Assembly (NCBI GenBank): GCA_016191785.1
Contig: JACPVJ010000121.1
Location: forward strand, 1 to 64,000
Direction of reading: 5' to 3'
DNA: 64,000 nt
From: Myxococcales bacterium
GTDB taxonomy: Bacteria > Myxococcota_A > Polyangia > Polyangiales > Polyangiaceae
A program made the translations under genes and the position numbers. Below, piece by piece: positions 19,301 through 48,010 of the stretch (its first letter is position 1; the number at the start of each line of letters is the position of its first letter). The notes beneath the pieces are model-generated. The model ran no database searches. It was not told the DNA's origin and was given only the letters and a program-made list of their open reading frames with translations.

Positions 19301-22261
19301 TCAGAGCTCCACGTTCATGCCGGCCAAGAAGGTGCGGCCGGGTTGGGGGATGGTGGTCATCCGGAACTCGCCGCTGACCGGCGCCGAGTAGTGCCAGTCC
19401 GCGACGTTGTAGGCGCCGAAGTTGTACCGCACCTTCGAGCCCATCATGTCGCCGCTGAACACCACGTCCCACACCACGCCCGCGTCGGTCTTGGCCTGAG
19501 CCGGCTCGGCCGTGGTCTCGCGCCGGTCGTAGCGGCTGCCGTCGAGGGTGACGCGACTCATCACCGAGAGCGAGCGGCCGATGATCGGCACGGCGCCTTT
19601 CACCGAAGCCAGGTGCGTCGGGGAGTTGGGCACCTTGCGCAGGTCGGTGTCGTTCTTCACGTAGCGGGCGCGCGAGAACGAGTACTGCGCTGCGACCATC
19701 CAGCCTTCGCGCCAGTCGCGCCGCAGCTCGGCCTCGCCGCCCAGCACCAGCACCGGCGAGCTCGAGTTGGCCAGGTAGAGCGGATCGGCGGCCGTGCCGC
19801 TGCCGCGCCCCACGATCAAGTTGTCGACGTAGTTCGCGTAGACCGCGCCGGTGGCGTGCACGGCGCGTGTGAGGGCGTGGGTGTGCTCGAGCTCCCCCGA
19901 GTAGACGGTCTCGGGCTCGAGGCTCGGGCTCGGACGCTGCACGGAGCTCTGATAGAAGAGCTCGTAGACGGTGGGCGCTCGGAAGGCGCTGCCGCCCATC
20001 AGCTTCGTGACCCCACCCGCGTAGGGCTTGGCGATGACCGCGGCCCGGGGGTTGAGCGAGCCCTTCGACGTCTCGGGGATGCTGGTGAACTCCCACTTGA
20101 AGTAGTCGTAGCGAGCGCCCGCGTGGAGCGCGAGCGCGTCGCCGAGCTCGACGTCGCCCACGCCGTAGGCGCTCATCACCCAGAAGGGGTTCTTGTCGTC
20201 GGGCAAGAACACGCCGCCGTCGTCCTCGCCGCGCAGGCTGGCGCGGAAGTGGCGCTGGCCCTCCCCGCCCAGGGTGAAGCGCAGGGGCTTCGACGGCTGG
20301 ATCACGAAGCGCTGCTCGAGCCCTGCCCACTGGCCGACGTATTTTTCCTTGGCGAGCCCGCCGTCGGCTGGGTCGTAGGGCGAGCCGGACTCGAAGACGT
20401 AGAGATTCGCGTGGGCGCGCGTCAGCGACTGGAACTGTTCGCCGAGCTTCGGCTCGAAGCGCGCCTCGACGAAGCCCCGCTTGTCGACGAAGCGGTTCCG
20501 GGGGTCGCCGAACAGGGTTTCGTACTCGGCGTGGGGCAGGGTCTTCTCGCGCTGGTGCCACAGCCACTGGACGGTCAAGTCGCGGTACCACGCGCGCCCT
20601 TGGAGGGTGGCGAGCGTCGTGTCGTCGAGCCCCCGGGCTTCGCCGTTCAGGCCGGACGGGTCGTTGCGGTACTCGGGGAAGTAGAAGTCACGCCCCGCGC
20701 CCCGCGCTCCCGCCACGCTCAGCCACACCCCGGCGTCGCGGCCGAACCGCTGGTAGGCATGGGCGCGGCCGCGCAGCATGCTGTGCTCGACCGCTGACGC
20801 CCCGACCTCGACCTTCGAGGGCTGGTCGCGCTCGTGGGTCACCACGTTGACCACGCCGAACACGGCACCGGTGCCGTAGAGCGCCGAACCCGGGCCGCGC
20901 ACCACCTCGATGCGCTCGACGTCCTCGATGTCGGTGCGCCCCTCGAACCCTGGGAAGGACTGGTAGAGGATGTTGTCGTTGTACGGGTGCCCGTCGTAGA
21001 GGATCAGGATCTTGTTGCCGTAGTCGCCTGGCCGCGAGAACCCGCGGAAGCCCAAGGTGACGTAGCTGCGATCGTCGGTCAGGTAGATGCCGCGGACGCC
21101 CCGGACGGCCTCGGCGATGGTCGGGTAGCCCATGGCGCGCAGCTCTTGGCCGGTGATGATGCTGACCGACGACGGGGCCTCTTCCACGAGCTGGGTGGTG
21201 CGGCTGACGGCGCTGACCTGGGCCTCGCGCGCCAGCTCGAGGTTCAGGCTCGACTGCTTGTTGGCGTTGATCTCGACCCGGCGCTCGATCGGGCGGAAGC
21301 CCGAGAGCGACACGCGCACGCTGTGGGGGCCGACCGGGATGGTCACCACCGCCGGCGTGAAGCCCTTGGGCTCACCGTCGACCTCGATCAGCGCGTCACG
21401 CAAGTCGCTGGCGACCACCAGCGTGCCGGTCTCGAGGACCAGCCGCGGACGAATCACCGAGGTCTTGTTGGGGGCGATGTCGACGTCGACTTCAGCGGGG
21501 CGAGTCCCCGGCTTGGTCACGAACACGCGGTGCGAGCCCGGCTCCAGGCTGATGTCGGCGGGCGCCTTTCCCACTACGGGACCGGTCGGATCGTCGATGC
21601 GGATCGCGGCGCCGGCGGCGCCCTCGACCCTCAGCCTGCCGAAGATGCTCTTCAGCTTCAGCTTCACGCTGGTCTTCGAGCCGGCGGTGACGGTGAGCAG
21701 CTGCGACTGGGCCGCCTCGTACCCCGGCCGCTCGAGGATGATGGTGTACTTGCCAGCGGCCAAGCCCAAGTCGCGGGGCGCCGAGCCCCGCGGGCCCAGA
21801 TCTTTGCGGTCGACGTAGATCGTGGCGTCGGGAGGATCCGACTCGACACGGATCACCGCGACGTTGGGCGCGATGCGATTGAGCGAGTCCTGAATGGCGG
21901 ACTTCTGTTTCGGGTCGGTCTCGTTGTCGAGCGAGGTGGAGTAGAAGCGCCACGCGTTCGGAAATTGGCCGAGCTGCTCGTAGCACCGCGCGATGTTGAA
22001 CAGGACGTTCTTGTTGGCCACGAGCCGGTTCGACAACAAGAAGTGCTCGAGCGCGCCGCTGAAGTCGCCCGCTTGGTAGCGTTTGGCGCCCAGCTGAAAG
22101 TGCAGGTCGGCCTCGTCGGCGAGATCGCTCGCGCCGGCCGGTGGGCTGAGCGCCACGAGCAGGGCCACGAGCAGCCCCGCCAGCGCGCGGGCCTCAGCGC
22201 TCCATCTTGATCTCGAGCGGGGGCTTCGGGGATTCGGTCGCGGACGCGGCGGGTGGGGCAT
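19301..22261 (-). CDS. TPR-PEGA-TonB-dependent receptor chimera
   Basis: A ~986-residue protein with an unusual domain order. After a hydrophobic signal segment (about residues 22-44), a TPR-like region (about 45-125) is followed by three PEGA-like beta domains (about 130-350, with PPDATIYVDRKDLG and VDGEPKGFTPAVVT). Then comes a TonB-dependent receptor plug (about 365-475) with GFRGFSRPG, YDGHPYND and VVRGPGSALYGTGAVFGVVNVVT, and a long beta-barrel ending near the C-terminus. Colicin/siderophore-type receptors lack the TPR-PEGA front. The start is uncertain: 22261 overlaps the kinase by 68 nt; GTG 22168 gives a short signal sequence. It likely binds something in the outer membrane, possibly coupled to the adjacent kinase. 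Confidence 0.65.
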   Translation of the reverse strand: MPHPPRPRPNPRSPRSRSRWSAEARALAGLLVALLVALSPPAGASDLADEADLHFQLGAKRYQAGDFSGALEHFLLSNRLVANKNVLFNIARCYEQLGQFPNAWRFYSTSLDNETDPKQKSAIQDSLNRIAPNVAVIRVESDPPDATIYVDRKDLGPRGSAPRDLGLAAGKYTIILERPGYEAAQSQLLTVTAGSKTSVKLKLKSIFGRLRVEGAAGAAIRIDDPTGPVVGKAPADISLEPGSHRVFVTKPGTRPAEVDVDIAPNKTSVIRPRLVLETGTLVVASDLRDALIEVDGEPKGFTPAVVTIPVGPHSVRVSLSGFRPIERRVEINANKQSSLNLELAREAQVSAVSRTTQLVEEAPSSVSIITGQELRAMGYPTIAEAVRGVRGIYLTDDRSYVTLGFRGFSRPGDYGNKILILYDGHPYNDNILYQSFPGFEGRTDIEDVERIEVVRGPGSALYGTGAVFGVVNVVTHERDQPSKVEVGASAVEHSMLRGRAHAYQRFGRDAGVWLSVAGARGAGRDFYFPEYRNDPSGLNGEARGLDDTTLATLQGRAWYRDLTVQWLWHQREKTLPHAEYETLFGDPRNRFVDKRGFVEARFEPKLGEQFQSLTRAHANLYVFESGSPYDPADGGLAKEKYVGQWAGLEQRFVIQPSKPLRFTLGGEGQRHFRASLRGEDDGGVFLPDDKNPFWVMSAYGVGDVELGDALALHAGARYDYFKWEFTSIPETSKGSLNPRAAVIAKPYAGGVTKLMGGSAFRAPTVYELFYQSSVQRPSPSLEPETVYSGELEHTHALTRAVHATGAVYANYVDNLIVGRGSGTAADPLYLANSSSPVLVLGGEAELRRDWREGWMVAAQYSFSRARYVKNDTDLRKVPNSPTHLASVKGAVPIIGRSLSVMSRVTLDGSRYDRRETTAEPAQAKTDAGVVWDVVFSGDMMGSKVRYNFGAYNVADWHYSAPVSGEFRMTTIPQPGRTFLAGMNVEL

Positions 22262-23663
22262 CGGGAGGGGGTTTCTTGGCAGAGGGGGCTGCGCGGGCGG
22301 TGCGCACCGGTGCCGCGGGCTCGGCGAGCTTGGTGTCGGCACGTGGATCGACCGCGGACGGGGCGGGCTCGGGCGGAGGCGGCGGCGAAGACGACTCGAC
22401 CGGGGCGGCAGCGGCCACGCTCGTGGTCGGGGTGGCGATCGGGCTGACGGCGGCTGGGTCGGGTCGCCGCGCTGCCCAGATGGCGACCCCAAGCCCCACC
22501 GCCAGCACCGCCCCAGCGGCGAACCAGACACCCAGCGGGGTGCCGTGGCCCTTTCGCTCGGCCGTGAAGTCGTTGGTCCGTGTCACGACCAGGTCGAGGG
22601 GGACCGGGGCCGACGGCGGGATGGGAAGCGGCGCGGAGGCGCGGTCGGAAGCGCCCGGCGCCACCGAAGCCAGGTGCACGCGGGTCAGGCCCGCCAGCCG
22701 CTGGATCCGCGTGATGTGCTCGACCGTCCCGTGCTGGCGGCGGTGGGCGAAGGGCAGCAGATCCATCGCCAGCTCGGCGATGCAGGGGTAGCGATCGCCG
22801 GGGTGCTTCGCCAGGCAGCGCGCGATCACGTCCGCCAATCGCTCGTCCACCTCGGGCCTGAGCTCGCGGACCGGGGTCGGCTCCGCTTCCAGGATCAACG
22901 CGCAGACCTCGGGCAGCGAATCGGCGAGGAACGGCGGCCGATGGCTGAGCAGCTCGTAGAGCACACAGCCGAGGGACCAGATGTCGGCGCGGGGGTCGGC
23001 GTCCCGGCTTCGCCGCACTTGCTCGGGTGACATGTACAGCGGCGTGCCGACCATGCTGGAGGTCTCGTGCAGCGCCTCTTGAACGGCTCCGCCGGTGAGC
23101 GCGGTCTTCGAAACGCCGAAGTCCAGCAGCTTGACCTGCCCGCGCCCGTGTCGCTCGATCAGGAACAGGTTCTCGGGCTTCACGTCCCGGTGCACGATCC
23201 CGTTCACGTGGGCCTCGGCCAGGGCGTCACAGGCCTCGAGCACCCAGTCCACGGCGTCGGCGACGTCGATCGCGCCGCGGCGCATCACCGCCGCGAGGTC
23301 TTCGCCCTCGAGCAGCTCCATCACCATGAACGGCGTGCCGTCATCCGTCTTGCCGACGTCGAGCACCCGGGCGGCGTGCTCACTCCTGAGCTTCACCACC
23401 GCGCGGGCCTCTCGGGCGAAGCGCGCCACCAGCTCGGGCTCGCCGACCCAGGCCGCTCGCAGGAACTTCAAGGCGACGGGCTCGTCCAGCTCGGCGTGGC
23501 GCGCGCGCACCACGATGCCCATCGCTCCGCGGCCGACCACGGACTCGATGACGTACTTGCCGGCGACGACCTGCCCCGGCTCGTACGTCGATTCGGTTTC
23601 AGAGGCCGATCCCCGCACGGCAAACCAGCATAGGGCAGTCTCCCGCGGGCAGACAGCCCCCAA
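22194..23663 (-). CDS. Ser/Thr protein kinase with TM segment
   Basis: A 489-residue Hanks-type kinase. The glycine loop GRGAMG and invariant Lys (ALKFLRA) open the kinase domain; the catalytic loop HRDVKPEN and the DFG motif LLDFGVSK follow, then APE-like MSPEQ. A Pro/Ala-rich linker leads to one TM helix (GVWFAAGAVLAVGLGVAIWAA, around residues 395-415) and a Pro/Ser-rich extracellular tail ending in SPKPPLEIKMER. Its gene is 7 bp downstream of a VWA lipoprotein gene. An alternative start is GTG 23618. It is a likely receptor kinase, phosphorylating unknown targets at the inner membrane. Confidence 0.85.
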   Translation of the reverse strand: MGAVCPRETALCWFAVRGSASETESTYEPGQVVAGKYVIESVVGRGAMGIVVRARHAELDEPVALKFLRAAWVGEPELVARFAREARAVVKLRSEHAARVLDVGKTDDGTPFMVMELLEGEDLAAVMRRGAIDVADAVDWVLEACDALAEAHVNGIVHRDVKPENLFLIERHGRGQVKLLDFGVSKTALTGGAVQEALHETSSMVGTPLYMSPEQVRRSRDADPRADIWSLGCVLYELLSHRPPFLADSLPEVCALILEAEPTPVRELRPEVDERLADVIARCLAKHPGDRYPCIAELAMDLLPFAHRRQHGTVEHITRIQRLAGLTRVHLASVAPGASDRASAPLPIPPSAPVPLDLVVTRTNDFTAERKGHGTPLGVWFAAGAVLAVGLGVAIWAARRPDPAAVSPIATPTTSVAAAAPVESSSPPPPPEPAPSAVDPRADTKLAEPAAPVRTARAAPSAKKPPPDAPPAASATESPKPPLEIKMER

Positions 23664-23670
23664 TTTTCTG

Positions 23671-24720
23671 TTACTTCACCGGGGGCACGTACTTGTCGCA
23701 GCCCTCGTCGATGACCTTCACGGCTTGAGCGAAGGTCGTGGAGTAGTCCCCCGCGCACACGGACGCATGTAGGTTGAACGGGAACTTGGCGACGAACTCG
23801 GCCCAATGCGCGCCCTTCGGCGTGCCGCTGCCCGGGCAGGTCGGGAAGGCCGGCGTGAAGCCCACGACGACCGCGGCCTTCGGGTCGCCCTTCTTCGCTG
23901 CCACGACCGCGTCGTACCAGCTCTGCGGCGTACCCTTGTCCTCGTAGTTCGGGTCGTCGCTGATGAAGGTGACGACCAAGAGCGCGTCGTCGCGCAAGAA
24001 GCCCTCGTTGCACCCGCCCGAGCCGTTCAGCTTGGGCGAGATCGCGGCCAAGAGCGACTCCATCGGGCGCTCGGACGAGTGCCCCGCCGTCCCCACCTGC
24101 GCGGCGCACGCGAATGCCCCCGGGATGTCGGTGTCCCCCTGCTGCAGCCAGCGCCGCCCCGCCGGGAAGCCACACTTCTTGTTGCTGGCGTACTGCCCCG
24201 CCGGGTGCACCACGCCGGCGCCCCAGGTGCGGTCGCACTCGTCGAACACGGTCTGCTTGATGTACGCGTTGCAGGTGGTGCTGCTCGGATCGATCCCGGT
24301 CCAGGGGTTGGCGGTGTTGCAGCGACCCCAGGCGTCGGTGTCGGCGACCATCACGTGCACGTTGCTGCCGGCGTTGACCGTGGTCTCGATCGACTTGATG
24401 AAGTTGGGGAAGGCAGCGACCAGCTGGGCTTGCTGGTCTTGCATCGACACCGAGTTGTCGACGATGAACAAGAAGTCGATCTTCTCGCAGCCCGCGCCCG
24501 CGCTGCCGCCGCCGCCGTCGGACGTGCCGCCGCCGATGTTCACGCCACCGCCGGTGCCAGCGCCGCCCGCCGCCGTGCCCCCCGAGCCGGTCGCGCCGGT
24601 CGACCCGGTGCCGACGGCGCCGCCGTCCCCACCCGCCGTGTCGCCCGGGTCGTCGGAGCAAGAGGCCAGGGCGACGGCGCAAAGGGCCACGGGAATCAAC
24701 GCGGATCGGATGCTCGCCAT
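23671..24720 (-). CDS. VWA-domain lipoprotein
   Basis: A 349-residue lipoprotein: lipobox ALASC (Cys21) and a Gly/Thr-rich linker (about residues 32-70), followed by a von Willebrand A domain. The MIDAS-type motif is D-N-S-V-S in IVDNSVSMQDQQ. Cys-rich segments lie in the insert (ADTDAWGRC, TTCNAY, KKCGFPAG). The start at 24720 has a strong Shine-Dalgarno (GGAGG) 5 bp upstream, which decides it over 24753. Similar in layout to the VWA lipoprotein at 11833; the C-terminal half differs. Its gene opens the minus-strand run ending at pap. Confidence 0.75.
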   Translation of the reverse strand: MASIRSALIPVALCAVALASCSDDPGDTAGGDGGAVGTGSTGATGSGGTAAGGAGTGGGVNIGGGTSDGGGGSAGAGCEKIDFLFIVDNSVSMQDQQAQLVAAFPNFIKSIETTVNAGSNVHVMVADTDAWGRCNTANPWTGIDPSSTTCNAYIKQTVFDECDRTWGAGVVHPAGQYASNKKCGFPAGRRWLQQGDTDIPGAFACAAQVGTAGHSSERPMESLLAAISPKLNGSGGCNEGFLRDDALLVVTFISDDPNYEDKGTPQSWYDAVVAAKKGDPKAAVVVGFTPAFPTCPGSGTPKGAHWAEFVAKFPFNLHASVCAGDYSTTFAQAVKVIDEGCDKYVPPVK

Positions 24721-31546: not shown

Positions 31547-33643
31547 ATGCTTCGTGAGCGTCTTGGACCATTGGTGTTGCTGACCCTGCTCAGCTCCGGC
31601 TGCTCGGCCAGCCTGTCGCAACGACCGGTGAAGACCGACGCCGAGCTCGGTCGGGTGATCGTCTATCGCAGCGGCGTGGCCTACTTCGAGCGGCACGCGC
31701 GGGTGGTGGACGGCAAGCTGGTGATGAACGTCCCTGCCGAACGGGTCGACGACTTCCTGAAGTCGCTCCGGATCCGGGACATCAAGAGCGGCAAGAGCTT
31801 GCCGGTGTCGTTCCCGACGCTGGTGCGACACGGGGACGTGGTCGAGCTGGGGCTCGAGCTGCCGAAGGACGCATCGCGCGAGATCGCCATCACCTACGTG
31901 ACCGAGAGCCCGGCCTGGAAGCCGAGCTATCGCGTGGAGCTGGGCGCCCAGGGCAAGGCGAAGCTCGAGGCCTGGGCCGTGGTCGACAACGTGTCGGGCG
32001 AAGACTGGGACCGGGTCACCGTCGGAGTCGGGAGCACGTCGGCGCTGTCGTTCAAGTACGATCTGCACAGCGTCCGGTTCGTGGAGCGCGAGACGCTGAA
32101 CGAGGGCCCGGCCGTGGCACTGGCGCCACCGACCGGCGGCACGCCCTACGCGGTGGCTGGCGGGCAGGTCGCGGTGGTCGGCAACCTCGGTCTCGACGAG
32201 GTCGAGCAGCTGACCGAGCGAGCGGGCACCGCCGCAATCTCGGATCTCGACGCGGGGGAGGGCCGCGGCGCGGCCGGTGGCGGGAAGCGGCCGGTGGCGA
32301 CGAAGGCCCGGGCCCGGGCGCTCCACCTGGCACCTCTGCCCGGGTCCGAAAAGGTGATCACGCTGGCGTCCAAGCTGAAGACCAGCGGGCAGCGCATCCG
32401 CGTCGAGGGCTACGCCAAGCCGGGGGAGAAGGACCAGAAGCAGGCCGCGCTCGGGCGCGCGAACGCGGTCAAGAACGCGCTCCTCGCCAACGGCGTGCCG
32501 GAGCGCCAGATCGAGGTCGTGGCGACGGGCAAGATCTCCGATCGCGACGGGGTGCGCTTGGTGGCAGCACAGGACGACGCCAAGCCGGCGCAGGCGAAGC
32601 CCGCCGCCGCGGCCAGCGCCCCGAGCGACCCGATCGGCAGCGCGCTCTTCATCGCGCCCACGCCGCTCAGCATCAAGAAAGACCGCTCGGCGCTGCTCAA
32701 CATGCTGAACGTCACCACCCGCGGCGAGCAGGTCTACTACTACGACCCGGTCTCGAGCCGCGGCTCGAAGCGCTTCGCGTTCCGCGCCGTGCGCCTGGAC
32801 AACCCCAGCGAGCACACCCTCGAATCGGGCCCTTTCACCGTCTATGCCGAAGGCCAGTTCCTGGGCGAGGGCCTCAGCGAGCCGATCCCTCCGAAGAGCG
32901 CGGCGTTCATCCCCTTCGCCCTCGACAAGCAGCTCTTGGTCGAGCCGGTGGTCGACACGCGAGAAGAGATCGAGCGGCTCGTGACCATCCAGCGGGGCAT
33001 CGTCCGCACCGAGGCGCAGACCATCCGGCGCACCAAGCTCGCGCTGGCGAACCGGGGCGACGCCCCGGCCAAGGTCTGGGTGCGGCACGCGGTGCCCGAG
33101 GGGTGGAAGCTGCGCGACTCGAAGGTGAAGGTCGAGAAGCTGCGCGGTGCGCACCTGTTTCCGGTCACCGTGCCCGGGCGGGGTGCCCTCGAGCTGGTGA
33201 TCGAAGAGAGCCAGCCGCTGGAGAAGACCATCGACATCAACACCGACGCCGGGGTCGAGACGCTGGCGCTCTTCTTGAACAAACAGAAGCCCGTGCAGCC
33301 CGAGTTGGCGAAGCAGCTCGACGAGATCGTGCGCCTGTACAAAGACATGGTCGACACGCGCGAGCACGTCTCGACCCTCGAGTCGCAAATGAGCACCTAC
33401 CGCGAGCGGGTGGACGAAATCCACGCGCAGCTGGTGACGCTGAGGCGGGTCAACGCCGCGGACAAACTGAGCCGCCACCTGGCAAAGAAGATGGAAGAGA
33501 TCAGCGAGCGGCTGCAGAAGGCGACGATCGAGGTGACCGATCTCAAGGGCAAGTTGATGACCGGCAAGGTGGCCCTGGCCGACCGCCTGGCAGAGCTCAC
33601 CCTCGAGACCAAGCCGCCCACCGCCCTGGCCGACAAGCGCTGA
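31547..33643 (+). CDS. DUF4139 lipoprotein with inserted OmpA-like domain
   Basis: A 698-residue lipoprotein (SD GGGAGG, lipobox LLSSGC, Cys19). The mucoidy-inhibitor-like DUF4139 half-domain shows [13 protein letters not shown] and [16 protein letters not shown] (about residues 120-165). It is interrupted by a ~75-residue OmpA-like segment (about 260-335, [12 protein letters not shown] and [16 protein letters not shown]) that keeps the Arg but lacks the GhTD Asp. The second DUF4139 half follows ([14 protein letters not shown] to [17 protein letters not shown]). The end is coiled-coil-like (about 590-690). Role unknown; cell-wall attachment is possible. Confidence 0.7.
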
Positions 33644-33739: not shown

Positions 33740-36478
33740 GTGGCGGATCCTGCAGCGGAAGACGAAGTCAGCCTCGCCAAGCGGCGAATCGGCAGCACGC
33801 TGGCCGGCCGATGGCCGCTCGAGCGGCTGATCGGCATGGGCGGCATGGCGGCGGTCTACGCCAGCCGCGACGAGGCCGACACGCCCGTGGCCGTCAAGGT
33901 CATGCACAGCTCGTTCTCGACCAACGACGGCGTGCGCCAGCGCTTCATTCGAGAAGCGCAGCTGATGCAAGCGGTCGACCACCCCGGTCGCGTCCACGTG
34001 TACGACGAGGGGGTCAGCGAGGAGAACGATCCGTACTTCGTGATGGAGTTCCTCCAGGGCTCCACCCTCGACAAACTGTGGAAGAAGCACCAGCGAGTGC
34101 TGGACGTCGAGTTCGCGCTCGAGGTCGCCGACTGCGTGCTCGACTTCCTGGCCGTGTGTCACGCCGAGGGGATCGTCCATCGCGACCTGAAGCCCGCGAA
34201 CATCTTCATCACCGATGCCGGCGAGGTGAAGGTGCTCGACTTCGGCGTGGCCAGAAAACGCGAAGCCGGCGTCGACCCGACCCTGGCGGGCACCGCCCTG
34301 GGCACCCCTGCGTACATGGCGCCCGAGCAGGCCCTGGGCGCCAACGATCGGATCGACGGGCGGACCGACATCTTCGCGGTCGGCGCCGTGCTCCACGCCA
34401 TGGTCACGGGCCAGCGCTTGCACGAGGGGCGCTCGCACCAAGAGGCCTTCGTGCTCGCCGCGACCCAGCCGGCGTCGTCGGTCTCGCAGGTCGCTCCCGA
34501 GCTCGGGCCCGAGGTGGTGGCCCTGATCGACCGCGCGCTCTCGTGGGACCCGCGCAATCGCTTCCAGAACGCCGGCGAGATGCGCGACGCCATCGCCAGC
34601 GTGCTCGCCACGCTGCGTGGCACGCCCGTCTCCGCGGCCCCCGAGCCGCAGAAGCCCCACGGCCGCGCCCAGCTCTTGGCGGCGCTGGCCGAGACGGCCG
34701 ACAGTGAAGAGGTCGCGCGAGAGCTCACGCCCGCCGAGCTCGAGGCGGTCGAGCGCATCAAAGAGATCTTCGTCCGCATCGAGCGCGCCCTGAACGCGGT
34801 GCGCCAGTACTCCGCGGGTCACAAGGTCGTGGTCGGCCACATGCAGTCGGTTCACGAAGTGGTCCAGGCCTACCTCGCGCGTGAGCCGCGCGGGCTCTCG
34901 TGGGAGGTGAAGCCGCACTCTTTCACCCACCGCAACGTGGTGCTGTGGGAGCCGCTCCACCCCTTCGACGAGATCCCCTACAACCTGTTCGCCAGCGGGT
35001 TTCGCGAGTTCACCGTCACGCCGGGGGTGACCGTGGACGAAGTGGCGACGTTGATCGACCTGATGCGTCGCGATCCGATGCGCGACTTCTCGCCCGAGGA
35101 CGACCTGGCGACGGCGTTCTGGGAGAAGCAACTCGAGCACGTGCGCTATCAAGTCGTCAGCTCGTTCTTGACGGTGGGCGCGTCCGACGAGCTCGACCGT
35201 GAGTACGACGACCTGATGGAGACCGGGCAAGACCTGGTGCAGAGCGCGGTGCGCAAGAAGCGGGCTGGCGCCGACCTCGACGCCGAGCCGATGTCGAACG
35301 AAGAACGCGCGGCGATGATCACCGCGCACCAGGTCGCCCTCCGCGCCGTGCGATCGGCCGGCGCCGCAGCACTGGACGAGCGAGCCCGCCAGATGATCGC
35401 GGCCGCGCTCGACATGCCCGAGGCCGAGTGGGAGGCGCGCTACGTCAAGGTCCTGGCCCATGCGGCGAGCGACGTGATGACCCACGGAAACCTGGCGCTG
35501 GTCTCGGTGCCGCTGCAGGCGGGGTTGCACGAAGCGGCCGCGAGTCAGACCCTCGAGGTGGCGCTCGGTCGCACGCTGGCGGTGCTCGCACAGCTGGTGG
35601 TGCGCGCCGGCCCGGCGGCGCGCGCGGCGCTGGCTCGCGAAGTCTTCGACGACGCCACGCTGGGTCTGGTGTTGAAAGAGCTGGCGCGCCCCGTGCCCGA
35701 ACGCGAGCGAGAGGCCGTGGCGCGCTCGGCACCCTACCTGGCCGAGCTGATCGTCGAGGCCAGCCCGCAGGCGTTCGACACCGTCCTCGCCGCGCTGGCC
35801 CGCGCCGACCTCGAGCCGATCCGTGACGCGCTGCTCCGCTATCTCGAGCTTCACGCGGTCGGGCGCGAAGAACAGATCGGGGCCCTCTTGGGCGAGGCGG
35901 ATCTGGCCCGGGGGCGCGCCATCTTGGGCTTGCTCGGCCGGCTGGGCACCGAGGCCGCGGCGCGGGCGCTCAAGGCCGCCGAGTCGAACGCCTTCCCCGA
36001 GCTCCGGGTCGAGGCGGTCGCGGTTCGGGCCAAGACCTCGCCCGAGGGGCTGCGGGACGAGCTGTCGCGCCTGCTCTCGGACCGCGATCCAGGTGTGCGC
36101 ATGGCGGTGCTTCGGACCATGGCGCGCTACAAGGTCAAAGAGGCCGGGCCCACGCTGGTGCAGCTGATCGGCGATGCGTCGTTCCACAAGCTCCCCGTCG
36201 ACGAGCGTCAGCTCGCGCTCGAGACCTTGTGGGAGCTCTCTCCCGCCCGAGCCGAAGCGCTGGTCAAAGACCTGGCGTTCAAGGCTGGCATGCTCAGCCG
36301 CGAGGCGGTGGACGACACGCGGATCATGGCGATCCACTTGCTCGAGCGGATGAGCGACAGCCGCGAGATCATCGCCGAGCTGGACAAGGCGGCGGACAAG
36401 TGGACCAACTCGCAGGCCGTGCGCGACGTCGCGGCGCAGGCCGCCGCGGCCATGCGGCGGAGGTTCGCCGGCCGATGA
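33740..36478 (+). CDS. Ser/Thr kinase with HEAT repeats
   Basis: A 912-residue protein starting at GTG. The kinase domain (about residues 24-295) has [31 protein letters not shown] and MAPEQ. A conserved module follows (about 330-450) with [17 protein letters not shown] and [22 protein letters not shown]. Then a helical region (about 560-905) has the pattern of HEAT repeats, including [25 protein letters not shown]. No TM helix is seen, so it is cytosolic. ATGA overlap links it to the next gene, which carries a second copy of the module. Targets are unknown; the HEAT array suggests a scaffold. Confidence 0.85.
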
Positions 36479-39279
36479 CCGAGCCCGCCGCCGAGACCGC
36501 GCAGCTCTTGATGCGCAACGTGGCCGAGCTGGCGCAGCGGCAGCAGGCCCGCGAGCGCGGGTCGTCTCTCGCGGGGCAGATCTTCCGCTTGCTCAAGGTC
36601 GTGCAGTTCCACGCCCTCGACAACATGGCGGTCTTGCAGGCGCTCGACCAGACGGTCGAGGCGCTCAGGGCGTTCGGAGCTCAGACCGGCGAGCCGCTCA
36701 CCCTGCTCTTCGCCAAGAGCACCGTGTTCGTCTGCGGGCAGCTGCTCAAGGCGTCGCGCGCCGAGTACGAGTCTGCCCTCGAGCTGTCGGACCTGGTGCG
36801 CCGGCTCGGGGTCAACCAGCTGACCCTCCAGACCGACGCGGACCGGGCCGACCTGACGGCCATGGCGCGCTTGTTCCAGCCGCCCCACAAGACACGGGCC
36901 GAGCACGGGGTGCTCGAGCCGTCTCCCCGCGTCCGCCTGCGCTACGTCAGCGCCGCGCGCCTCGACGAGAACGACCAAGAGATGTCACCGGAGGATCAGA
37001 TCCTCCGGACCTACGCCACCACCGTGGTGGTCATGCGCCGGGTGTACGAGAACCTGCAGGCTGGCCGCTTTCAGCTGCCGAACCAGGTCAAGCGCCTCGC
37101 GCAGCGCTTGGTGGTGCTCTCAGAGGGGGACACGCCCGCGTTCTTGGGCGTCACCGGGATGCGCAGCTCGAGCAGCGACGCCGCGGGCCGCGCCGTCAGT
37201 CGCGCCATCTTGGCGGTCTCCATGGGGCGGCAGCTCACGCAGGACCTCGCCACGCTGTCACGCATCGCGATGTCCGCGCTGTTCATGGACGTGGCCACGC
37301 CGATGGTCAGCGGGAGCGCCGGCACGGGCGGCGTCGTGACCCGCCTGACGCCGAGCGCAGAGCAGCGCCTCCCGGCGGCCACCGCGGCGGTGCTCACCGC
37401 GCTCGGGCAGGTCCGCGAAGCGTCGATGGTTCGCACGGTGATCGCCTACGAAGCACACTGGCTCCGCCAGGCCGCGCGGCTGGGCCCGATGTACGACGGC
37501 GAGTACAAGCCGATGGTGGCGGCGCGGATCGTCGCCACCGCGCATCGATTCAACCAGCTGATGCAGCCGGACTTGGCCGCCGATCAGGCCCCCGGCGTCG
37601 ACGACGCCATCGCCGCTCTCCGGGCCGAGGCCCGGGACACCCTGGACCAAGCGATGCTCGTGCTCCTGGTGGGCGCCCTCGGCGTCTTCCCCCGGGGCAC
37701 CCCGGTGCAGCTTTCGACGGGGGAGAGCGCGGTGGTCTTGCGCTCGCCCGACAACCCGGCCGACTACCCCCGGCCCACGGTGCGGCTGGTGTACGACGCT
37801 GCTGGCCAGCCGCTTCGCATGAAGGTGGCACTCGACCTAGCGGCCGACGACCAGCGTCAGGTCGAGCGCGTGATCGCCCAGCCCGACCCGACGCTGCTGC
37901 AAGTCTGCCAGGCCGTGTTGGCTGCCGCTTCCCCGGCCGAGCCGGCGCGCGCCGAGGTCGCCGCACCACCCCGGTCCGCCCCCGTGCAGAGTCCGTCCAT
38001 CGCCGACGTCGAGACCGAGACGGTTCGTCCGCGCGCGCCGTCGCCTCATGACCTGACCCCGTCGGCCCAGCGGCGGATCCCGTCGGTTCAAGAGCTGACC
38101 CCCGTACCCCAGATCCGGCTGTCGTCGGAGCCCGAGCTGACGCCGGCCCCGCGCGAGCGGGCGCCCTCGGTGACCGAGCTGACGCCGAGCCCGTCGGCGC
38201 CGGTGAGGATGCGCCGGGCGCGCACCGCACTGGTCGAGGTGGTCGACGCGCCCCGGTCGCGGCGCGACCCGCGCTCCGAGGACTTCGACGAAGAAGAGGC
38301 GCCGCCCTCGGTCAAACCGTCACCGCCGCCACGCCAGCGCAAGCTGAGCCAGCAGCTGACACGCCGACCGTCCAGCGCCTCGGAGACCGAGGGGCTGCCC
38401 GAGCTGATCCCGGACACGGACGATCTGGTCGCGGTCGAGCCCTCGGATCCGTCGTCGCACTGGCGGCGCGCGCCCGCCACGCTCGAGCCCCCCGCCGGCC
38501 CGGAAGAGGGTCCCGGCGCCGACACCCACGCGCCGAGCGCCAGCGGGTCCCTCGAGCGGACGCCGTTCTCGAACGTGTTCCTCTACGTGCTCGACCGCGC
38601 GCTCTCCGGCACGCTGGTCCTGACCGAGCCGGCGGACCACGAAGGGGACGACCCCGTCCAGCACGCGGTCTTGTTCCAGGACGGCATCCCCACCAAGGTG
38701 CACGTTGCCGCGCGCGTGGCAGCGCTCGGCCCGATGCTGGTCGCCTTCGGCGCGATCGAACAAGACCAGCTCCAGAACGACCCCATCACCCAGCCTCCGA
38801 CCCACGAGGCCACGCTCGAACAAGAGCTGCTCGCGTCCGGCCTGTGCCAAACCGAGCAGATCGCCGAGGTGCGGAACGAGCAGATCGTCGAACGCATGAG
38901 CTTCCTGTTCGGGTTGCCGCCGGCGACCGAGTACGCGTTCTACAACGGGTTCGACCTGGTGCAGGTGCTCTGGGGCGACGTGCCGGGCGTCACCTCGCCG
39001 CTCGGCGCGCTGACCCGCGGTCTGCGCGAGCACCCCGAAGAGTCCGCGATGGACGCGATGCTGCTCCGGCTCGCGGCGGTGCCGCTAGTGCTCCACGAAG
39101 AGGCGGATCCGACGGTCTTCGACTTCGGTGACGACGAGCTGGCCGTGGCCAGCGCCTTGGTCGGTGCTCCCCTGTCGATTCCGGATCTGATCGAAGCGGG
39201 TCATCACCCCGACGTGGTCCGGCGGGTGGTGTACGAGCTCTTGCTCACGCACTGCCTCGCCCCGGCCAGCGCCCAGTGA
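36475..39279 (+). CDS. Degenerate HD-GYP/DUF4388-like signalling protein
   Basis: A 934-residue protein. Residues about 20-145 resemble the module found in the upstream kinase (LLKVVQFHALDNMAVLQALDQ). Then a segment aligns with HD-GYP proteins: SRAILAVSMGRQLTQDL, SALFMDVATP where LLHDIGK is expected (Met271-Asp272), YEAH where HHE is expected, and the typical tail FPRGTPVQLSTGE followed by TVRLVYDAAGQP. Metal ligands are largely lost, so cyclic-di-GMP hydrolysis is unlikely. A disordered Pro/Ser region (about 500-680) leads to a DUF4388/PATAN-like end (LSGTLVLTEP, AVLFQDGIPTKVHVAARV). It is probably a signalling scaffold. Confidence 0.65.
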   Translation: MTEPAAETAQLLMRNVAELAQRQQARERGSSLAGQIFRLLKVVQFHALDNMAVLQALDQTVEALRAFGAQTGEPLTLLFAKSTVFVCGQLLKASRAEYESALELSDLVRRLGVNQLTLQTDADRADLTAMARLFQPPHKTRAEHGVLEPSPRVRLRYVSAARLDENDQEMSPEDQILRTYATTVVVMRRVYENLQAGRFQLPNQVKRLAQRLVVLSEGDTPAFLGVTGMRSSSSDAAGRAVSRAILAVSMGRQLTQDLATLSRIAMSALFMDVATPMVSGSAGTGGVVTRLTPSAEQRLPAATAAVLTALGQVREASMVRTVIAYEAHWLRQAARLGPMYDGEYKPMVAARIVATAHRFNQLMQPDLAADQAPGVDDAIAALRAEARDTLDQAMLVLLVGALGVFPRGTPVQLSTGESAVVLRSPDNPADYPRPTVRLVYDAAGQPLRMKVALDLAADDQRQVERVIAQPDPTLLQVCQAVLAAASPAEPARAEVAAPPRSAPVQSPSIADVETETVRPRAPSPHDLTPSAQRRIPSVQELTPVPQIRLSSEPELTPAPRERAPSVTELTPSPSAPVRMRRARTALVEVVDAPRSRRDPRSEDFDEEEAPPSVKPSPPPRQRKLSQQLTRRPSSASETEGLPELIPDTDDLVAVEPSDPSSHWRRAPATLEPPAGPEEGPGADTHAPSASGSLERTPFSNVFLYVLDRALSGTLVLTEPADHEGDDPVQHAVLFQDGIPTKVHVAARVAALGPMLVAFGAIEQDQLQNDPITQPPTHEATLEQELLASGLCQTEQIAEVRNEQIVERMSFLFGLPPATEYAFYNGFDLVQVLWGDVPGVTSPLGALTRGLREHPEESAMDAMLLRLAAVPLVLHEEADPTVFDFGDDELAVASALVGAPLSIPDLIEAGHHPDVVRRVVYELLLTHCLAPASAQ

Positions 39280-41853: not shown

Positions 41854-41907
41854 TTTCAGCCTGTGATTACCAGAGCCTAGCGCCGTCTGATAGCCTAGGC
41901 AGCGTCC

Positions 41908-43539
41908 ATGCAAGTCAGTCCCGTGCCGCTCGCCGAGCCGCGCATCGTCGGGCGATATGCGCTCTACGGCGAGATCGCCGCCGGCGGCATGGCCACGGTT
42001 CACTTCGGCCGGCTGGTGGGCGCCGTGGGGTTCTCACGGACCGTCGCGGTCAAGCGGCTCCACCCGCAGTACGCCAAGGACCCCGACTTCGTGTCCATGT
42101 TCCTCGACGAGGCGCGGCTGGCGGCGCGCATCCGGCACCCGAACGTGGTCAGCACGCTCGACGTGGTGCCCCTCGACGACGAGGTCTTCCTCGTCATGGA
42201 ATACATCCACGGCGAGGCCCTCTCGAAGCTGATCCGCTCGGCTCGGCGTCAAGGCGAGCTCGTGCCGCCCCGAGTCGCAGTCGCGATCATGGCCGGCGCG
42301 CTCCACGGGCTGCACGCCGCCCACGAGGCAAAGAGCGAGCAGGGCGTGCCGCTCAACATCGTTCATCGCGACATCAGCCCGCAGAACATCTTGGTGGGCA
42401 CCGACGGCGCGCCCCGGGTGCTCGATTTCGGCGTGGCGAAGGCCGCGGCCCGGGTGACCTCGACCCGGGATGGCCAGATGAAGGGCAAGGTCGCCTACAT
42501 GGCCCCGGAGCAGCTCCGGGGAAAGGGAGTGGATCGGCGCAGCGACGTCTTCGCCTCGGGGATCGTGCTCTGGGAGACGCTCACCGGGCGGCGCCTGTTC
42601 GATGGCGACGATCCGGGCGAGATCATGGCCAAGCTGCTGCAGGCCGAGATCCCCTCGCCGTCGAGCGTGGAGCCGAGCGTTCCCGCCCACCTCGACGCGA
42701 TCGTGATGCGCGCGCTGACGCGTGAAGCCGAAGCTCGCTGGCCGACCGCTCGCGAGATGGCCATCGCGCTCGAGCACTCCGGTCCCATCGCCATGGCGCG
42801 GGAGGTCGGCGAGTGGACCGAGCGAGTCGGCGAAGAGACCATCGGAAAACGCGCCCGGCAGGTGGCCGAGATCGAGAGCGGCTCGTTGGCCCACATCCGC
42901 GCCGTCGATTCCGCCCCCATGTCCGCGCCGCCTTCGATCGCGTCTCAACCGGTGCACCTGGCCCCCGCCGATCCCGTCCCGACCAGCTGGCCCGCCGGCG
43001 GCGCGCCGGGGGATCCGATCACCTCGCCCTCGCAGGTGTCGCACGTGACCAGTGCGTCGCGGCCGTCGGTTGGGACCTCGCCCACGCACGCATCGGGGCT
43101 GTCGGTCGCGCATTCCGTGGCGCCGCGACGTCGGGGCGTGTTCGCGGCGTTGATCGGAGTCGCGGTGGCGCTCGGGGTCGCGATCACCGTTTTCGCGGTG
43201 ATCCTGCTCTGGCGGAAGAAGCCCGAAGCTTCCGACGTCGTGGCGAGCGACCCGCCGCCGGCTCAGACCACGCCCGCGGCGGTGTCGCCCGACCCTGCGC
43301 CGACGCCGGAGGTGCCGCCCGCCGGGGCGAGCGTCGCGCCGCCGGCGGCGAGCGCCGAGCCGCCAGCGGCCAGCGCGGAACCCGAGCCCAAGCCCGCTGC
43401 CAAGCCCGCAGCCCGACCGGCCGTCGGTGGCGGCGTGAAGAAGCCCGCGGCGCCGCCGAAGGCGCCGGCCGACGGGTGCGATCCGCCGTTCACCATCGAC
43501 AAGAACGGTGTGCGTCGGGTCAAGCCCGGCTGCATGTAG
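41908..43539 (+). CDS. Ser/Thr protein kinase with TM segment
   Basis: A 543-residue Hanks-type kinase: GEIAAGGMATVHFG (glycine loop), VAVKRLH (Lys), the catalytic loop HRDISPQN (Ile-Ser in place of Leu-Lys, a variant common in myxobacterial kinases), VLDFGVAKA and MAPEQLRG. A linker of low complexity follows, then one TM helix (RGVFAALIGVAVALGVAITVFAVILLW split around residues 410-435). The extracellular tail is Pro/Ala-rich with a short Cys-containing end. The downstream gene (43592) encodes a PEGA-like exported protein, a common pairing in Polyangia. Confidence 0.85.
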   Translation: MQVSPVPLAEPRIVGRYALYGEIAAGGMATVHFGRLVGAVGFSRTVAVKRLHPQYAKDPDFVSMFLDEARLAARIRHPNVVSTLDVVPLDDEVFLVMEYIHGEALSKLIRSARRQGELVPPRVAVAIMAGALHGLHAAHEAKSEQGVPLNIVHRDISPQNILVGTDGAPRVLDFGVAKAAARVTSTRDGQMKGKVAYMAPEQLRGKGVDRRSDVFASGIVLWETLTGRRLFDGDDPGEIMAKLLQAEIPSPSSVEPSVPAHLDAIVMRALTREAEARWPTAREMAIALEHSGPIAMAREVGEWTERVGEETIGKRARQVAEIESGSLAHIRAVDSAPMSAPPSIASQPVHLAPADPVPTSWPAGGAPGDPITSPSQVSHVTSASRPSVGTSPTHASGLSVAHSVAPRRRGVFAALIGVAVALGVAITVFAVILLWRKKPEASDVVASDPPPAQTTPAAVSPDPAPTPEVPPAGASVAPPAASAEPPAASAEPEPKPAAKPAARPAVGGGVKKPAAPPKAPADGCDPPFTIDKNGVRRVKPGCM

Positions 43540-47032: not shown

Positions 47033-47983
47033 TCAGCCCCGGGCGCGCAGGCGCTCCCGCACCTGGCGGATGCTGCCTGCCAGGACCGGGCCCGAGGTCG
47101 AGTCGGGGAAGACCCGTAAGACCTCGCGCAGGGCCTCGAGCATCTCGAGCGCCGAATCGAACCGGCGGCGGGGATCGCGCTCGAGGGCCCGGTGGACGGT
47201 GGTGGTCAGGCCCATCGGCAGCTCGGGTCGTTTGACCGAGAGCAGCGGGATGCGTGGGTCCTTCAGCATCGCCAAGACCTGGATGTCCGTCGCCGCATCG
47301 AACAGGCGCTGTCCGGCCAGGGCCTCCCACAGGCACACGCCCAGGCTGAACAGGTCGCTCTGCACCGTGGCCTCGTCACCGCGGACCAGCTCGGGCGCCA
47401 GGTAGCTGAGCTTACCCTTGACCACGTTGGGCTGGGTGATGCGGCCGCGATCCATGGCGCGGGCCATGCCGAAGTCCGCCAGCTTCACGATCCCGCTGAC
47501 GTCGAGCAAGATGTTCGGGGGAGACACGTCGCGGTGCAGCACTGGCGCCAGCTTGCCGGCTTCGTTCCGGGTGGTGTGGGCGGCGTCCAGGGCGCGCAGG
47601 ACCTCGATGGCAATCGCCGTCACGATGGGCCAGGGCGCCGTCTTGTCGAACCCCTTCTGATAGTCGCCGAAGTGCAGCCCCTCGACCCACTCGGTGACCA
47701 GGTAGTACTGCCCCTCGCCGTCGATGCCGAAGTCGTGGATCTGCACGATGTTGGGGTGCCGCAGCATGGCGCCGACCCGGGCCTCTTCCACGAACATCTG
47801 GATGACCTCGGGGAAGTCGTTGAACGCCTCGTTCAGGCGCTTCACCGCCACGGTGCGGCGGAACCCCTCGGCGCCGTAGACCAACGCGCGCCAGACCGTG
47901 CCCATGCCCCCGATGCCGATCTGCTCGATCAGCGCGTACTTCGCGTCCACGATCGCGCCGGGCGTGTCCGAGCCAATGGTCAT
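47033..47983 (-). CDS. Ser/Thr protein kinase (soluble)
   Basis: A 316-residue Hanks-type kinase that consists essentially of the catalytic domain. Motifs: GIGGMGTVWRA (glycine loop), VAVKRLNEA, LHRDVSPPN (Val-Ser variant of HRDLKPxN), LADFGMARAM and LAPELVRG. No TM helix. The C-terminal 35 residues are a short tail. It is co-directional with a small lipoprotein gene (48011-48262) 27 bp upstream and is likely cytosolic. It is separated from feoAB by about 85 bp on the other side. Confidence 0.85.
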   Translation of the reverse strand: MTIGSDTPGAIVDAKYALIEQIGIGGMGTVWRALVYGAEGFRRTVAVKRLNEAFNDFPEVIQMFVEEARVGAMLRHPNIVQIHDFGIDGEGQYYLVTEWVEGLHFGDYQKGFDKTAPWPIVTAIAIEVLRALDAAHTTRNEAGKLAPVLHRDVSPPNILLDVSGIVKLADFGMARAMDRGRITQPNVVKGKLSYLAPELVRGDEATVQSDLFSLGVCLWEALAGQRLFDAATDIQVLAMLKDPRIPLLSVKRPELPMGLTTTVHRALERDPRRRFDSALEMLEALREVLRVFPDSTSGPVLAGSIRQVRERLRARG

Positions 47984-48010
47984 CAGGCTCGAGATCCTAG
48001 CACGCGGCGC

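Follow-up and report, generated by a model that had tools for sequence, protein, structure and literature searches.

Two overlapping genes in a member of the Myxococcales, one for a Ser/Thr kinase with a HEAT-array tail and the other for a degenerate HD-GYP protein, each carry one copy of the same protein module. Both lie in a 64,000-nucleotide stretch of contig JACPVJ010000121.1 (hereafter, the window). The kinase and its partner are probably one signaling unit, because both carry the module and the two genes stay paired in many relatives. On balance, we favor the reading that they encode subunits of one signaling complex, with the twin modules perhaps joining them and the dead HD-GYP subunit controlling or docking the kinase. 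The features of the pair are as follows.

33740 to 36478, + strand: kinase-module-HEAT gene (912 amino acids, GTG start)
33821 to 34567, + strand: Ser/Thr kinase domain, residues 28 to 276 (Pfam PF00069, E 6.1e-43; catalytic motifs intact)
34742 to 35074, + strand: shared module, kinase copy, residues ~335 to 445 (hhalign; each Pfam family matches at most 1 of 33 copies)
35177 to 36475, + strand: helical HEAT array, residues ~480 to 912 (Pfam HEAT_2, E 2.8e-8)
36459 to 36463, + strand: GGAGG, candidate ribosome-binding site of the partner, read from the sequence, 11 bases upstream
36475 to 36478, + strand: ATGA stop/start overlap (a 4-base offset is also available in 39 of 58 distinct pairs)
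36475 to 39279, + strand: partner gene (934 amino acids; sequence from the chosen ATG conserved in locus L014)
36547 to 36885, + strand: shared module, partner copy, residues ~25 to 137 (hhalign)
36982 to 37884, + strand: degenerate HD-GYP domain, residues ~170 to 470 (24-row profile A1; 2 of 7 metal ligands)
37885 to 38529, + strand: Pro/Ser-rich linker (sequence composition)
38530 to 39264, + strand: DUF4388-like region with an MshEN-like stretch (member profiles; neither 24-residue c-di-GMP motif)

The ATGA overlap that an initial annotation had described as joining the two long genes is present, with the kinase stop TGA at 36476 to 36478 and the partner start ATG at 36475 to 36477. A start codon giving the overlap is available in 28 of 45 plus 11 of 13 distinct pairs, and in 25 of the 29 pairs whose upstream gene matched the kinase HMM; these counts depend on inferred start codons. 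Note that 4-base overlaps are common in operons, and that a TGA stop preceded by A, G or T gives one whenever the frames fit. A promoter scan found none, and terminator-like sites were at the expected level (two found versus 2.1 expected). From this arrangement we infer coupled translation, by which kinase and partner would be made together.

The proposal that a segment of about 120 residues is common to both proteins was borne out by profile-profile comparison. The kinase-side and partner-side modules aligned above background, with an hhalign probability of 93.3% (E 2.7e-7, 107 columns; profiles of 20 kinase-side and up to 24 partner-side rows) against at most 1.26% in 18 controls (7 other segments, 1 reversed, and 10 column-shuffled). 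Without the divergent rows L059 to L063, the probability was 72.8% (E 3.2e-5). Modules from kinase-free loci (19 upstream and 20 downstream segments, aligned apart, all except L117 outside the window's family) gave 97.95% (E 3.2e-13, 136 columns) against at most 0.8% in 13 controls, although these segments were picked with a combined profile (A7), a choice that may favor the result. Furthermore, in distant pairs the partner-module HMM matches the upstream protein directly (per-domain values of 3e-8 in L060, 2e-7 in L059, and 9e-4 in L062). Judged by these alignments, the kinase and partner segments are homologous, and the module is definable as a new protein domain. The sole PDB match better than 0.1 was to a designed protein (0.006). 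Each copy would comprise two helices, three strands, a helix, a strand, and a helix. Predicted models of both proteins, built from four rows each and of low confidence in the module, have helices, three strands, a strand, and a helix; the helix between strands three and four appears in the partner model, not in the kinase model.

The upstream protein is, as had been proposed, a HEAT-array kinase. Pfam and a motif check place the catalytic Lys, HRD, and DFG in its Pkinase domain, and the window kinase is apparently intact. HEAT_2 scored 34.3 bits, above the Pfam cut-off of 27.7, and was matched in 18 of 20 family members at E ≤ 0.1. In the predicted model, pLDDT is mostly 76 to 93 over approximately residues 600 to 910 and low N-terminal to that; the array matches HEAT/ARM solenoids weakly, among them the PP2A A subunit, and may present partners or substrates. 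PknB-like bacterial Ser/Thr kinases are alike in kinase domain and catalytic motifs, whereas the window kinase has a tail of module and HEAT array, with no PASTA match in Pfam. Among 23 kinase rows, Lys, HRD, and DFG are intact in 18, with L050 cut and L058, L063, L075, and L076 degraded. Eight further kinase-bearing pairs were examined, and seven passed the pattern test (L128 fails at DFG). We did not retain L063 as a pseudokinase, as Pfam finds no kinase there and the kinase HMM used had itself included L063. With regard to a possible role in defense, the match to PADLOC models (anti-phage kinase PD-T4-6) is confined to the kinase end; the partner matches none of them. Three further kinase-domain frames lie in the window, at 22194 to 23675, 41899 to 43539, and 47033 to 48010.

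The partner's central domain was recognized through its family. Profile A1 (24 rows, first 490 residues) matched the HD-GYP structures 5z7c (best, 4.4e-14), 4r8z, 4mcw, and 3tm8, in one run whose rows included four or five from kinase-free loci, with sites more intact. Individually, 11 of 24 partner members matched Pfam HD_5 at E ≤ 0.1; the window partner alone had no HD match in Pfam at E ≤ 1, and nothing relevant there except a sub-threshold DUF4388. Its predicted model has a mean pLDDT of 47. The HD-GYP cyclic-dinucleotide phosphodiesterases PmGH (4mcw) and V-cGAP3 (5z7c) resemble the domain in fold and sequence, but in the window partner it is attached to the unnamed module and a DUF4388-like region, and it has lost most of the active site. 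According to Bellini and co-workers, PmGH has eight metal ligands, seven of them common to both HD-GYP subgroups; replacing H189, H221, D222, H250, H276, or H277 by alanine left essentially no activity, and replacing D305 lowered it (PMC4159591). Against the active set H, H, D, H, H, H, D, the seven columns of the window read R, M, D, L, A, H, H. What survives is D272, the Asp of HD, and H328, one of the two HH histidines; the remaining five columns hold R239, M271, L299, A327, and H357. The GYP motif is absent, with L, G, and P at those columns. The claimed loss of metal-binding residues thus applies to most of them, five of seven being replaced, but not to all, as D272 and H328 remain.

Because only two of the seven metal ligands are kept, the partner should not hydrolyze c-di-GMP, and the ligand table agrees with its earlier description as non-catalytic. 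That the partner is instead an active c-di-GMP phosphodiesterase, as its HD-GYP fold might suggest, is scarcely credible with five ligands replaced. Bd1817 (3tm8) is likewise a non-catalytic HD-GYP protein, matched by the partner profile at 7e-4; it is described as having a binuclear iron center (PMC4159591), whereas most ligands are gone from the window partner and a kinase gene is paired with it. Across a 63-row table, all 28 kinase-linked rows keep one or two of the seven ligands, a label that includes L049 (kinase end missing) and L050 (kinase end cut), both at contig ends. The 30 kinase-free rows divide into 17 with at least five ligands and 13 with two or fewer. Four of five pseudokinase-linked rows have dead HD domains, and L063 keeps six ligands; L063's kinase is without Pfam support, and L074 took its label from resembling L076, as the contig end cuts its own upstream gene.

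Beyond a linker in which [DE]LTP occurs four times in the window and three times in L014 (none in 16 other partners tested), the partner ends in a region like DUF4388, a family also called the PATAN domain. We rejected the LTP repeats as kinase sites, because the window TP count was reached by 120 of 500 shuffles (lowest values, 34 of 500 in L053 and 46 of 500 in L052). At E ≤ 0.1, 13 of 14 members matched DUF4388; the window copy differs from DUF4388 proteins in scoring 14.1 or 17.4 bits, under the Pfam cut-off of 25. In the L057 partner, a long tail past DUF4388 seems by eye to include a J-domain. The C-terminal profile matches the c-di-GMP domains of PilF (5.3e-10) and MshE (3.5e-6), and 11 of 14 members are picked up at E ≤ 0.1 by the NCBI c-di-GMP motif model NF053729 (top value, 1.1e-11), with the window at 17.7 bits versus a cut-off of 38. 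The MshEN receptor for c-di-GMP has two 24-residue motifs (PMC5013675). The strict form of the motif occurs in 0 of 17 C-terminal regions, and one relaxed half occurs in L053 only; the window has none. Because the motif is missing and the NF053729 score is below cut-off, the window copy is a weak candidate for a c-di-GMP receptor; certain relatives may be stronger ones. We therefore dropped c-di-GMP binding via the MshEN-like stretch for the window copy only, where the motif test was negative, given that the model matches most relatives.

These matches bear on an alternative that we regard as unlikely, namely, that the dead HD-GYP or DUF4388-like region is a nucleotide or small-ligand receptor signaling to the kinase and that the modules may be structural only. 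Degenerate second-messenger enzymes can serve as receptors. Enough of the HD-GYP fold survives for solved HD-GYP proteins to be recognized by the family profile, and the NF053729 matches suggest that some members may bind c-di-GMP. However, the window partner lacks the GYP motif and five of the seven ligands, its NF053729 score is well below cut-off, and neither 24-residue motif is there.

The separation of the two genes in relatives, which would count against a functional pair, was not what we found: we placed 59 adjacent pairs, 58 of them distinct, L045 (which repeats the stretch of L014) and L077 (which repeats the L060 locus) having been removed before counting. The kinase tail was found in 10 of 20 genomes (own genome included), and the partner adjoins it in every locus examined, a check that left out the weak hit G002:C3 and the contig-start piece G008:C312. 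The module occurs in 16 of 37 genomes drawn from the phylum and in 19 of 38 drawn from the order, the two samples overlapping. Outside the window's own genome, the 24 phylum-sample loci are two-gene pairs in 19 cases, a fusion in one, and single copies in four. Only one module was found at L061, L112, L118, L119, L121, L136, L138, and L139, of which at least L061 and L136 are at contig ends; since some loci have a single module, a neighbor with a second module is not obligatory. Pairs of a module-HEAT and a module-HD-GYP gene with no kinase are common. Thus, of the proposed kinase-HD-GYP signaling pair, the conserved overlapping arrangement stands, but it is not restricted to kinases.

Each of three genomes of the genus has three paralogous module-bearing pairs, and the two genes of a pair branch alike. 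A fourth paralogous pair, with no module detected, was seen in L074 (own genome, C136; cut by the contig end), L075 (G002:C1), and L076 (G001:C8). All three keep one of seven HD ligands; the kinase motifs of L075 and L076 are degraded (HGA, GFG), and in L076 a kinase piece shares its frame with the HD domain, and a HEAT piece is in a different frame. Across 20 loci (first 12 clusters), the genes flanking the window pair were seen again in L014 alone, including an upstream gene at 31547 to 33643 with DUF4139 and OmpA matches, and other flank families recur in at most five loci (L011, L015, L016, L047, and L048). Larger "conserved flank" clusters (17, 13, 7, and 6 loci) were dropped, as by eye they resemble frames antisense to or overlapping the pair. 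In L102, L108, L118, and L119, 4 of the 22 phylum-sample loci without a fused kinase, the gene immediately downstream in the same orientation encodes a kinase with intact motifs, a count to be set against the 26 to 115 kinase matches that these genomes have. L118 and L119 encode module-dead-HD proteins without a HEAT gene, with the kinase gene immediately after.

Kinases are very numerous in the window's genome (138 Pkinase matches at 1e-10), which might favor plain co-transcription of a kinase with an unrelated protein and a likeness due to chance. This is contradicted by the module homology and the conservation of the pair, and we consider it very improbable. It is also rather unlikely that the twin modules bind one small ligand independently while the operon merely keeps levels equal. 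Such a role would suit a module found in both genes and alone at a few loci; however, the module is not known to bind a ligand and lacks a convincing Pfam or PDB match, and adjacency and fusions suggest closer cooperation.

Two such fusions come from different families. L107 (G025:C17, 4572 to 9554) is a single 1660-amino acid frame in which kinase, module, and HEAT are followed by another module copy (weak, at 20 bits), a dead HD in two pieces, and DUF4388; Pfam confirms the kinase and DUF4388, and the tail is TPR-like by eye. L122 (G066:C14, 3490 to 7038) is a single 1182-amino acid frame joining two modules to an HD domain that has seven of seven ligands, with no kinase and no HEAT detected. 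Furthermore, the trees of upstream and downstream genes agree (mirror-tree r 0.973 over 23 pairs, with 0 of 2000 permutations as high), an agreement that in part reflects shared species history. With this, our preferred reading of a two-subunit complex takes the following form. The two proteins likely touch, and the twin modules would most likely pair with each other; the subunit with the dead HD-GYP and DUF4388-like regions may sense, or dock, and so control the upstream kinase. Contact, pairing, and control are all inferred.

The order in which this arrangement arose can be read from a quick tree with ligand columns masked, which has two changes for dead HD domains and two for kinase presence. 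Of the 45 dead HD domains, 43 fall together in a single 43-row group (support 93, not starred), in a tree whose root was not inferred and where long branches meet. This group comprises all 28 kinase-linked rows, 11 kinase-free rows, and 4 pseudokinase rows. Active HD-GYP is generally viewed as ancestral, which is our basis for the direction of change. The simplest reading is that HD-GYP catalysis was lost first, and the kinase is probably a later graft, because the dead-HD group also holds kinase-free pairs. We did not keep the idea that loss of HD catalysis correlates independently with kinase gain, as the tree yields only two independent pairs and the uncorrected rank test (P = 0.004) ignores kinship.

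The pair had been called undescribed, and we found no title or abstract describing it in the open-access literature (HD-GYP with HEAT, kinase, Myxococcus, or operon; degenerate HD-GYP; DUF4388/PATAN; MshEN; and the myxobacterial kinome). Protein kinases are very abundant in myxobacteria, and, to our knowledge, the inputs of most are unknown. A conserved neighbor with a dead second-messenger enzyme is a concrete candidate regulator for this kinase family. More tentatively, the pairs may represent a widespread, as yet unnamed two-subunit signaling scaffold of Myxococcota joined by two copies of a new domain, in which the HD-GYP died first and a kinase was grafted later onto the other subunit, converting a second-messenger module to one of phosphorylation. 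Running from intact HD-GYP pairs to kinase-bearing ones, the series suggests a way in which one signaling chemistry may replace another.
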